DNA of 40,163 nucleotides from Bdellovibrionota bacterium (GTDB lineage Bacteria; Bdellovibrionota; UBA1018; CAUJDS01), in the NCBI GenBank assembly GCA_963169695.1, contig CAUJDS010000075.1, forward strand, positions 1-40,163. Direction: 5' to 3'. A model generated the notes under the pieces. The model ran no database searches. It worked only from the letters and a program-made list of their open reading frames with translations, and was not told where the DNA came from. Position numbers and translations under genes: made by a program. Below, in pieces: positions 8,205 to 18,187 of this stretch. Numbering within the stretch: the stretch's first letter is position 1; the number at the start of each line of letters is the position of its first letter.

Positions 8205-8377
8205 GCGGCTTCTTCCTGATGTGGAGTGTTAAAGGCGCTTTTGGCTTTTTAGGCGCTGACTACGCGCCTATTATTGGTTTCCGAAATCTTCGTCGAAAGA
8301 AATGCTTCACGAAGAAAGTCCTTGAAGTTGGAGGACGGGACATATCTGTAGTTGAGGCAACAACCAGAGTTGCCCAG

Positions 8378-8408
8378 CCCCAGCAAGGCGGGTTTGAAGC
8401 TAGGAAGT
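8378..8408 (+). repeat. Left arm of 31-bp perfect inverted repeat
   Basis: Begins CCCCAGCAAGGCGGG and ends AGCTAGGAAGT. Its exact reverse complement lies at 9006-9036, so the two arms bracket the HNH pseudogene and leader remains (659 bp from end to end). A diverged direct copy occurs at about 16694-16724 upstream of the intact HNH gene, where similarity continues through GATGACAGGA. Confidence 0.9.
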
Positions 8409-8524
8409 TAGCAATGGATGACAGGAAGGGAACCAACGAGGGTGAGGGGGCTTCGGCTTTGATTAAATACATTTTATATATGTAGTATAACGAATCCCTA
8501 CTAGGACCTGAAAGGTACCCCTTC

Positions 8525-8562
8525 GTCGTACAGTACGACAAGGGCTTGTTACTCGAGAAGCC
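8525..8562 (+). repeat. Palindrome GTCGTAC-A-GTACGAC plus adjoining stem-loop (degenerate HNH element)
   Basis: A perfect 7+1+7 palindrome at 8525-8539 is followed at once by a 5-bp stem GGCTT (8543-8547) / AAGCC (8558-8562) with a 10-nt loop. The same arrangement occurs upstream of the intact HNH gene at 16865-16901, where the stem is GGCCT/AGGCC. The T-A to C-G change is a compensatory pair, which argues that the stem is real. Confidence 0.7.
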
Positions 8563-8579
8563 TGAAGTGAAGCTAGCTT

Positions 8580-8639
8580 TTCCGATTGTGACTTAATTGT
8601 GAGTGCAAAATATAATGCAGATGATTTTTCTCTTGGCGC
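8580..8639 (+). repeat. Conserved 60-nt leader block, copy 1
   Basis: Begins TTCCGATTGTGACTTA and ends CTTGGCGC. It aligns without gaps to 16953-17012, with seven differences by my count. TATAAT at 8611-8616 corresponds to TAAAAT at 16984-16989 and may be a conserved -10 element, although no well-spaced -35 is seen. Further patches of similarity continue to about 8730 (CTTTCATT.AGAGCG). Confidence 0.8.
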
Positions 8640-8775
8640 GTTGAAAATGGGTTTCATTTGTTTCTCTTCAAAAATTGCTCGACCTTTCTTATCGCGATGC
8701 TAAGGCTTCCAGCTTTCATTCAGAGCGACGCATGTTCAATTTGCGGGAAGGATTCTGCTCTTAAGAATCAAAGCA

Positions 8776-9005
8776 ATGCGCAAAGTAGTGACTGCCCAGG
8801 CAATTCAACCTCGTCGTACAGTACGAGAAATTGACGCGGCTGAGAGAAATCCTGAGCGGGATTCAAAATCCTCGCCAAAAACCCTGACCAAGGGCCGAGT
8901 CCCCATCCCAGCTGGTATCAAACACGAGGTGACTATCAAGAATGCACACCAGCGCACCTATCAAGAACCTAGGACCCAGCTTCGATGTGAGAAGGAAAGG
9001 TTCTT
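8776..9005 (+). pseudogene. HNH endonuclease pseudogene (central fragment)
   Basis: The frame from ATG 8776 gives a peptide containing RRTVRE, VPIPAGIKHEV, IKNAHQRTYQ and LRCEK, matching residues of about 205-283 of the intact HNH protein encoded at 17228-18187. The whole N-terminal two thirds are missing: leader sequence runs almost directly into codons equivalent to about residue 205. The catalytic HNH core is also gone, because homology stops at RCEKERFL where the right arm of the 31-bp inverted repeat begins. The first cysteine of the putative zinc knuckle (C266 in the intact protein) is arginine here. The frame continues to a stop at 9045 through non-homologous sequence. It cannot encode a nuclease; whether it is transcribed is unknown. 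Confidence 0.85.
8814..8826 (+). repeat. Palindrome TCGTACAGTACGA inside the HNH pseudogene
   Basis: A 6+1+6 perfect palindrome encoding part of RRTVRE. It is identical in sequence and relative position to 17872-17884 in the intact gene and to the leader palindrome core at 8526-8538. Confidence 0.9.
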
Positions 9006-9036
9006 ACTTCCTAGCTTCAAACCCGCCTTGCTGGGG
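9006..9036 (-). repeat. Right arm of 31-bp perfect inverted repeat
   Basis: Exact reverse complement of 8378-8408. It interrupts the HNH pseudogene precisely before its catalytic core. The intact HNH locus does not carry an equivalent inverted arm downstream of its stop codon. Confidence 0.9.
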
Positions 9037-9346
9037 TTGCACTAGCCTTATTCAAGCCGTTGATGGTCAGTAGCTAGAAGAAGATACCTATCCCTAACAG
9101 GGTGGCTAGGTATTGAGAAAGTTAGTGTGATGAATTAGGCAGTCTTCAAGAAAATTTGCTGACTACACGCCTTTTTTTCCGCCGAAAAAACACTGGAACC
9201 AGTTTCTACGTTTGAGAGGTTTGGTTGGTGAGCCACCTGCTCCCAATGAGGAAGTTGACACCAAGACTCCCAGGGTGACCCAGATTCCGTTCTTCATCTC
9301 TAAGGGATAGTTTCACCCACAATCGGTTTTCGCGCCAATTCGTAAT

Positions 9347-16664: not shown

Positions 16665-16864
16665 CCATAACGCTGTTGAATGGGAGATGCCCAGCCCCAG
16701 CAAGACGGGTTTGAATCTTGGAGGTTTGCACGGGATGACAGGAGGGGAATTCAGCGAGTGGGGTGACAAGGTAAGAACTTAACTACATTAATATTATGTG
16801 TTTATAAAACTGCCTTTGAGCTAATCAAAATAGTTCTTTTCTTCGTGGCGGACGAAAGGAATCA

Positions 16865-16901
16865 TCGTACTGTACGACGAGGGCCTGATGTTTGAGAGGC
16901 C
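16865..16901 (+). repeat. Palindrome TCGTAC-T-GTACGA plus stem-loop upstream of intact HNH gene
   Basis: Palindrome at 16865-16877, then the stem GGCCT (16882-16886) / AGGCC (16897-16901) with a 10-nt loop. It matches 8526-8562 in layout, with compensatory stem substitutions and a changed central base (T for A), which leaves the palindrome intact. Confidence 0.75.
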
Positions 16902-16952
16902 TGCAGTGGCTCTGTTACGACAAAGATGGGAGCAACAGGGGCAAATTTTTCG

Positions 16953-17012
16953 TTCCGATTGTGACTTAGCTGTGAGTGCGAAATAAAATGCCTATGATTT
17001 TTTTCTTGGCGC
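16953..17012 (+). repeat. Conserved 60-nt leader block, copy 2
   Basis: Gap-free match to 8580-8639 (seven differences by my count), beginning TTCCGATTGTGACTTA and ending CTTGGCGC, about 215 nt before the HNH start codon. TAAAAT at 16984-16989 is the equivalent of TATAAT in copy 1. Confidence 0.8.
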
Positions 17013-17227
17013 AATGAAAAGCAGCTTCCTCTTTAACTCTTTGGTAATGGTCCAATCTTTCTAATAACCGTGCTAAGCCCTCTCGCTTTCATTTAGAGCG
17101 GAGAATGTTCGTTTCATGGGGAGGCCTCTTTCTTTTCAGAGTTAGGCGCAATAGAAGCCAAAAGAGCGAAAAAAAATTGCGCTGTAAAACCCGTGGTAGG
17201 TTCGTCCTCATTGAAAGGAACTCTTAA

Positions 17228-18187
17228 ATGTCAAACCTGATTTGCTCTCTCCACGACCAAGCCTTGGAACTTTCAAAACAATACCTTGCTTGCGAGAAAG
17301 AGCTTTTAGAGATTCTGGTGAAGATTGAGGCCAAGAGAGTCTATCTTGAGCAAGGCTATGCAACCCTAACGGAATATTCTCAAAAAGCATTGGGACTTTC
17401 TCGAGACGTCAGCTGGAACTTGGTCACCATTGTCCATAAGTCCAAAGCCGTACCGGAACTAAAGCAGGCGGTGCAAAGGGGAGTGCTTCCTCTCAGCAAA
17501 GCTCGACAGATCGCACCTCATTTAACGAAAGAAAATTCTCAGAAGTTCATTAAACTTGCTCAGACCATGCCGAGGGAGAAACTCCAAGAAGCCCTAGCAC
17601 GAGAATGCCCCAAGGTTCCAAGCGTGGAAGAGCGCGCTCGGGTGATCAATGCAACGCAGGCTGAGCTTTCTTTGTGTTTGCCAAAAGAGGTTATGGAGAA
17701 AATCCGCCGAGCCCAAGATCGAGTGTCGGAGTCGCAGAAGAAATGGGTGGGATTAGCAGAGACATTAGAGCAAGTCGTAGAATTCTATCTTCAGCACAAA
17801 GACCCAAAAGAAAGAGCCAAGCGTCATGAAGTTCGAAAAAGCAAAGCGGCTGTGAAGACAATTCAGGCCCGTCGTACAGTACGAGAATTTGACGGGGCTG
17901 CCATAAGTCATGAATTAGATTTCAGGCCTATAAATAAACCTATTGCCAAGATTCCATCAAAAAACCGAGTCCCCATACCAGCCGGTATCAGGCACGAGGT
18001 GATCATCAAGAATGCGCATCAGTGCACCTATCAAGATCCAAAGACCAAGTTACGATGTGAGAAAGGAAGATTCCTCCACTTTCATCACAAACTTCCGGTG
18101 GCAAAAGGCGGGACCAATGCGCTAGAGAATCTAACCTTGCTTTGCAGCGCACATCATCGTTTGGAACACTATCAGGGAAGTGCGTAG
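17228..18187 (+). CDS. HNH endonuclease family protein with helical N-terminal domain
   Basis: 319 residues, start supported by AAAGGAA about 8 nt upstream. Residues 1-190 are helical and DUF222-like in feel (LLEILVKIEAKRVYLEQGYA, LPLSKARQIAPHLT). A basic linker (190-250) contains RRTVRE. The C-terminus is a Zn-type HNH nuclease: C266 and C277 of CTYQDPKTKLRC, then H286-H287, N301 in LENLTLL, C306 and H309-H310. All catalytic positions are present, so it should cut DNA. The RRTVRE codons contain the palindrome TCGTACAGTACGA, which also stands in the gene's leader. Near-relatives are, from memory, multi-copy in bdellovibrios. A decayed second copy lies at 8776. It stands alone between the kinase-like gene and miaB. 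Confidence 0.9.
   Translation: MSNLICSLHDQALELSKQYLACEKELLEILVKIEAKRVYLEQGYATLTEYSQKALGLSRDVSWNLVTIVHKSKAVPELKQAVQRGVLPLSKARQIAPHLTKENSQKFIKLAQTMPREKLQEALARECPKVPSVEERARVINATQAELSLCLPKEVMEKIRRAQDRVSESQKKWVGLAETLEQVVEFYLQHKDPKERAKRHEVRKSKAAVKTIQARRTVREFDGAAISHELDFRPINKPIAKIPSKNRVPIPAGIRHEVIIKNAHQCTYQDPKTKLRCEKGRFLHFHHKLPVAKGGTNALENLTLLCSAHHRLEHYQGSA
17872..17884 (+). repeat. Palindrome TCGTACAGTACGA inside the HNH coding sequence
   Basis: 6+1+6 perfect palindrome in the RRTVRE codons, the fourth copy in the window. It lies 1,007 nt downstream of the leader palindrome of the same locus. Confidence 0.9.

Follow-up and report, generated by a model that had tools for sequence, protein, structure and literature searches.

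A probable old, deleted copy of a transposon-like HNH repeat with inverted arms in a Bdellovibrionota genome

The window, the whole stretch of 40,163 nucleotides analysed here, is one contig of the 2.79-Mb, 82-contig assembly of a Bdellovibrionota bacterium in which the searches were made. It contains a locus that is, on balance, best explained as an old, non-coding copy, deleted at least twice, of a lineage-specific and transposon-like HNH repeat. Copies of this repeat form a genome-wide family in which arms are paired in inverted orientation, parts of the interior have been lost from some members, intact genes are under selection and deleted members have deletion junctions in common. The window copy is a fossil that exposes a family of HNH repeats with inverted arms and no transposase seen, and this family is worth more attention than the window copy itself.

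The window copy and its inverted arms

The perfect 31-bp inverted repeat described in the first-pass annotation is present, positions 8378-8408 and 9006-9036 being exact reverse complements, and a blind inverted-repeat search recovers it within the slightly longer pair 8375-8411 and 9003-9039 (37 nt, 95% complementary, 591 nt between). A 30-mer of the arm matches the window twice, once on each strand, against 0.00 matches expected in shuffles. The left arm (8375-8442, + strand) is about 70 bp long and matches other copies over that length (8371-8442); the right arm (9003-9039, - strand) matches them over about 37 bp and retains the outer 37 bp only, its inner half being lost. The leader remains and HNH fragment said to lie between the arms are both found there. 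Similarity to the leaders of other copies (67-86%) spans 8373-8777; the remains of the HNH gene's non-coding leader proper lie at 8448-8760 (+ strand), the similarity extending to 8772-8777 for some copies, and they include the palindrome TCGTACNGTACGA at 8526-8538 (no strand assigned). A junction segment of 42 bp (8761-8802, + strand) leads into the HNH gene remnant (8798-9007, + strand), which comprises the linker and the first part of the HNH domain, as far as about residue 284, and carries a second copy of the palindrome in its linker-coding part (8814-8826, no strand assigned). A translated search aligns 8785-9009 with residues 206-284 of 319, the DNA comparison starting at 8798. The HNH similarity stops at 9003-9007 and the right arm begins at 9003-9006, in agreement with the earlier statement that the homology ends where the arm starts. 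Relative to HNH-bearing copies the window copy has internal losses, as had also been proposed. Arg stands in place of the first HNH Cys, the catalytic His and the later Cys/His residues are missing and the frame departs from the HNH sequence ahead of the catalytic His; the window copy thus cannot make an active nuclease.

The element is longer than originally assigned (8371-9036, about 660 bp), since similarity to other copies extends to about 8276 on the left and to at least 9122 on the right. The left outer module, of type A, occupies 8276-8374 (+ strand) and in several copies adjoins the outer side of the left arm; the motif GGTTTCC at 8276 is the probable true left end. A module of type B (9040-9122, - strand), also found outside the arms of several copies, follows the right arm, and the true right end, at about 9157-9169, is uncertain. 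The copy lies between the members of a direct repeat, 8255-8275 and 9158-9178 (both + strand), with 18/21 bases equal and the left member abutting the probable left end. This is possibly the target-site duplication that the first-pass annotation had suggested looking for, although the sequence looks like a terminator and the expected right end falls within the right member.

The window also holds an intact copy, whose left arm and leader lie at 16684-17227 (+ strand; palindrome 16865-16877) and whose 319-aa HNH gene lies at 17228-18187 (+ strand; linker palindrome 17872-17884). It is 1 of 10 intact copies in the genome, and its right arm gave no match in the 20-mer core scan.

Arms, HNH genes and outer modules across the genome

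A 20-base core of the arm occurs at 41 sites in the 2.79-Mb genome at up to 3 mismatches, and the reversed-pattern control gives 0. The further inverted pairs that the first-pass annotation proposed to search for do exist: 26 of the 41 sites combine into 13 inverted pairs, and every pair encloses an HNH gene or the remnant of one. The remaining 15 sites are one-armed, 13 being HNH-bearing copies, remnants or contig ends and 2 having no recognisable interior; among the fetched loci no further real arms appear at up to 5 mismatches. A genome free of other inverted pairs, with the right arm produced by a local rearrangement, had been named as the outcome that would overturn the reading, and the genome search excludes it. 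Similarly, the 41 core sites rule out local rearrangement or chance as the source of the window inverted repeat.

The ten intact first-family HNH genes comprise that at 17228-18187 and nine others at 84-86% identity to it, with both arms within 3 mismatches of the core in 6 copies and one arm in 4. A second HNH family, 24% identical in aligned members (28-29% by local search), has the same arms. Over the 45 pairs of intact genes the median dN/dS is 0.129 and dS ranges from 0.295 to 1.059, which indicates that the intact copies are old and under selection. The copies are mosaics, the distance matrices of adjacent windows being uncorrelated in places. PF01844 (HNH) is matched at E <= 1 by 21/21 members; in the window HNH protein it forms a C-terminal domain at 30 bits versus a cut-off of 21.4, and 2 of 3 second-family proteins fall just under the HNH cut-off (19.7 and 20). 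PDB matches likewise cover mainly the HNH region, and in a viral collection five loci match, with the match confined to the C-terminal HNH region. A structure model built from two sequences is not usable (mean pLDDT 43.3). Pfam DUF222 gives no match in the own-genome proteins and reaches its cut-off in 0 of 21 genomes (best 18.4 bits versus 24.4), 1 of 21 aligned members matching at 4.4e-6; membership of the HNH family in DUF222 is rejected on these scores below cut-off. A structured leader RNA has little support, almost no covariation being present (two-sided change in 3 of 46 leader pairs).

Likeness among the 26 arms (ungapped) is 93% at positions 1-20, 77% at 21-30, 43% at 31-37 and 84% at 38-46, the last value rising to 91% once the truncated window arm is left out. 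Set against a mean identity of 69% at four-fold sites, the blocks 1-20 and 38-46 look constrained while the other arm positions do not; block 1-20 is also the search pattern, of which block 38-46 is not a part. The arms of different elements are identical across 30 bases in 5 of 156 comparisons, so the perfect repeat of the window is no sign of youth and is attributable to the apparent constraint on the two blocks. Recent gene conversion within the copy as the origin of the perfect arms is ruled out, left-right identity over 46 bases being 0.811 within elements versus 0.802 between them.

A 72-base arm query finds 0 matches in 57 other genomes from the same order or class, which include none from the same taxonomic family as the window genome and no empty site. 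The HNH family itself is present in 32 of these 57 relatives, all of them without an arm match; the HNH gene is widespread, its arms are lineage-specific. The one named relative among the matches, a Bdellovibrionaceae MAG, gives a best segment of 29% and suggests a Bdellovibrio-like host. Among 29 single loci of other genomes, 4 have an inverted match around the HNH gene at E < 0.1: L152 (21 bp), L156 (23 bp, perfect), L170 (20 bp) and L172 (84 bp, 80%). The pair at L172, in genome G041, is A/T-rich and surrounds a gene of the HNH family. Among the papers listed by the literature searches, titles and abstract openings give no description of such an element in Bdellovibrio relatives.

Outside the arms, module A (about 85 bp) lies mostly on the left and module B (up to about 133 bp) mostly on the right, 12 of 14 module matches adjoining an arm. 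Both modules start alike, with GGnCTCCGtA, and this start is the probable true end of the element. In the two elements whose outer ends can both be read, the flanks are 9-bp near-duplicates, GGATTGTCC/GGATTGCCC (8/9) and CAGTTTTAG/TAGTTTTAA (7/9), in a register picked by eye. In a blind search for flanking direct repeats over the 13 pairs, own flanks score 9.2 on average versus 8.3 for 156 mismatched flanks, and the window copy has the top score, 13.5, versus a mismatched maximum of 12.5. The case for target-site duplications in the family is only suggestive. No open frame of at least 120 aa runs across the arm in 18 of 21 loci, the other frames being 3 putative crossing frames in a count with one edge hand-set for 8 loci, and the elements are mostly intergenic.

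Two further observations concern the surroundings of the arms. A palindromic terminator-like repeat, AAAGGTGCC...TTTTTGGCCCGAGGCGCGTC, often adjoins arms in place of modules A and B, as at G000:C37:1-130, at C13:13240-13310, at the left end of C56 and at the right end of C69. The last 141 bases of contigs C51 and C80 recur at the start of C60, within a second-family element, immediately interior to its arm; these identical copies or strain variants are a sign of recent rearrangement or copying.

Palindromes, deleted copies and competing explanations

The palindrome TCGTACNGTACGA has 37 sites in the genome at up to 1 mismatch (control 4), 29 of them exact, and 27 of the 29 exact sites lie within first-family elements or remnants. 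Each of the ten intact elements carries two copies, one in the leader (exact in 9 elements, one mismatch in the tenth) and one in the gene linker (10/10). Four four-fold codon positions within the linker copy are common to all ten elements; three of them do not vary, whereas the fourth, at the free centre, does. With 20 of 86 four-fold columns invariant overall, these positions lend modest support to a constraint on the palindrome. At the remnant G000:C34:25284 the leader is joined to the gene linker at the palindrome (33 linker bases, 97%), as if the segment between its two palindromes was lost, and two intact leaders have bases similar to this linker stretch at the palindrome.

Related genomes, too, have palindromes in the HNH linker, though of different sequence. 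Strong palindromes (score >=7) occur in 14 and 21 of 65 HNH-family loci in two overlapping linker windows and in 0-4 of 65 elsewhere (64 loci in one window), versus 3 of 325 shuffled linkers; the 65 loci come from 79 candidates, the rest being without the motif or duplicates, and are related, so that the counts are not independent. The window family's own palindrome scores 5.5, under the score-7 cut. Examples of linkers with differing palindromes are L160, L188, L200 and L206, that of L160 being 33 bp long. The relative G009 has one palindrome, ACTCGCGCCGGCGCGAGT, in both leader and linker. A small inverted-repeat element, bordered by CCGG on either side, is inserted at its centre in HNH linkers and leaders of this genome, in either orientation (L204 1444-1591; L205 1414-1561 and 2345-2492; L208 2426-2573).

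The complete form of the repeat would consist of module A, an inverted arm of about 70 bp, a leader with palindrome, an HNH gene with linker palindrome, a second arm and module B. The arms would delimit the unit in which copies reached intergenic sites, and copies with deletions would at least sometimes have travelled too. Since the element proteins scanned include no transposase, the leading candidate for the mobility function is the HNH protein, whose nicking or cutting may start copying or ectopic gene conversion. The palindrome would then be both the binding or cleavage site of the HNH protein and the operator of its own promoter, and the paired palindromes, conserved in position across genomes, predict where this protein binds or cuts. 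The window copy, without the gene start and the catalytic end, would be movable only in trans. If the HNH protein does move the repeat, its mode of mobility would be unlike DDE, Y1, serine or RNA-guided systems.

As far as sequence comparison can tell, an old and deleted copy of a transposon-like repeat is favoured by the 13 inverted pairs, by arms common to two HNH families and by modules A and B beside the arms. The selected intact genes, the constrained arm blocks, the 9-bp near-duplicates, the shared deletion junctions and the palindrome sites point the same way. Weighing against it are own flank repeats that score only slightly above mismatched ones, the absence of the arm from the 57 relatives and the near lack of covariation in the leader; the variability of arm positions 21-37, together with the identity of block 1-20 and the search pattern, also counts against it. 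The more far-reaching proposal, that Bdellovibrio relatives have a transposase-free class of mobile element in which a DUF222-like HNH nuclease brings about its own copying and that of HNH-less derivatives, acting through a family-specific palindrome at its promoter and in its gene whose sequence differs by lineage while its place in the linker is kept, is speculative and rather unlikely.

The deleted copies bear directly on how the window copy arose. Its 42-bp segment is neither leader nor HNH gene and is 100% identical in the deleted copy C12c (C12:27509-27550), where it sits at the edge of a palindromic insert (G000:C12:27413-27522, L128 1914-2023; 30-nt arms, 93%); the final 22-26 bp of the segment recur in C31a, at the deletion junction (C31:14264). 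An assignment of 8761-8802 to the HNH gene is ruled out, the segment being common to deleted copies only. C12c and C31a share one deletion junction and are identical from the segment into the HNH domain. C31a comes closest to the window copy in its leader (86% identity across 407 aligned positions) and at its right end (39 bases identical), and it keeps an open frame of 205 aa (L127 1994-2551; C31:13893-14450) in which residues 1-125 are followed, after an in-frame deletion, by about 258-318. Among second-family copies, C8:11559 (C8a) and C8:29190 (C8b) have in common a deletion of about 166 bp in which the HNH core is lost. The same junction is found at C69:2495, where the sequence is cut off 9 bases after it, and C69:2495 and C8:11559 share a further segment of about 162 bp. 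The deleted copies are interrelated, whether through movement in trans, gene conversion or a small mobile insert.

A MITE proper, that is, a deleted form that arose and was spread in trans by HNH-bearing copies with the window copy as a member, would account for the size, inverted ends and internal deletion of that copy, but is on the whole improbable. The 42-bp segment, shared in full with C12c and in part with C31a, raises its odds and lowers those of the preferred reading, and the junctions common to C12c and C31a and to C8a and C8b point in the same direction. In contrast, the right junction of the window copy (9003-9007) is found nowhere else and its right arm is without the inner half, which fits decay in place, and the copy runs from the 42-bp segment into the linker rather than into the HNH domain as C12c and C31a do. 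Shared junctions could also result from gene conversion, and ATCC stands at both edges of the C8a/C8b deletion, so repeated independent deletion is possible in the second family. The MITE-like character proposed in the first-pass annotation is partly supported: it holds for the arms, which are inverted ends of a genome-wide repeat, for the internal deletion and for the kinship of deleted copies, while movement of the 660-bp window form itself is conjectural.

Similarly doubtful is a retained HNH gene family, for example for defence or as a self-regulating nuclease, that would stem from ancient duplication and be kept similar by gene conversion, with the arms acting as regulatory elements or terminator. 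With a dN/dS of 0.13 the old copies resemble retained genes rather than a typical transposon, they are mosaic, and PMC13061034 reports the REP13E12 repeats of M. tuberculosis as gene-conversion hot spots. Such a family would however leave unexplained arms that are inverted around the gene and common to two HNH families 24% identical, junctions shared by deleted copies at different places in the genome and 9-mer near-duplicates at two elements.

A REPIN/RAYT-like system, in which short inverted arms are maintained by a nuclease and the HNH protein replaces the RAYT transposase, is very unlikely. It would accommodate paired inverted arms alongside one-armed copies (15 of 41 core sites), but the Pfam matches of the element proteins scanned include no Y1 transposase (RAYT) domain, and 13 of the 15 one-armed sites are not free short repeats but HNH-bearing copies, remnants or contig ends of HNH elements. 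An RNA-guided element of the IscB/OMEGA type, in which the leader would serve as guide RNA, can practically be dismissed, since the match to NCBIfam guided_IscB (E 8.9e-7) covers the HNH part only at 28.3 bits versus a cut-off of 175, no RuvC family is among the Pfam matches of aligned HNH members, Rfam finds tRNA only and no guide RNA family in the window, and the leader, although conserved, shows a two-sided change in only 3 of 46 pairs.

Comparison with known systems

The repeat resembles the REP13E12/DUF222-HNH repeats of Mycobacterium in that HNH genes are multicopy and lie in interspersed repeats. REP13E12 is linked to HNH/DUF222 in PMC10589994, and strong gene conversion is reported for these repeats of M. 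tuberculosis in PMC13061034. The own-genome HNH proteins differ in having no DUF222 match, a resemblance of the N-terminal region being detected below cut-off and in relatives only. By eye we take this region of the element's HNH protein to resemble DUF222. To our knowledge, REP13E12 has no 70-bp inverted arms and no linker palindrome.

Like MITEs and other non-autonomous derivatives of DNA transposons, the window copy is short, internally deleted and bounded by inverted repeats, and has related deleted copies. In contrast to MITEs, its partners are HNH-only as far as scanned, its two arms are of unequal length and no other copy has its right junction. The arrangement of a gene between inverted short repeats, with one-armed copies in addition, recalls REPIN/RAYT systems, but here the protein is an HNH protein rather than a tyrosine transposase and the arms are about 70 bp long. 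Finally, free-standing HNH homing endonuclease genes, for which we know of no inverted arms, are similar in being intergenic HNH genes that multiply without a transposase; unlike homing genes, the HNH element has copies at many unrelated sites.
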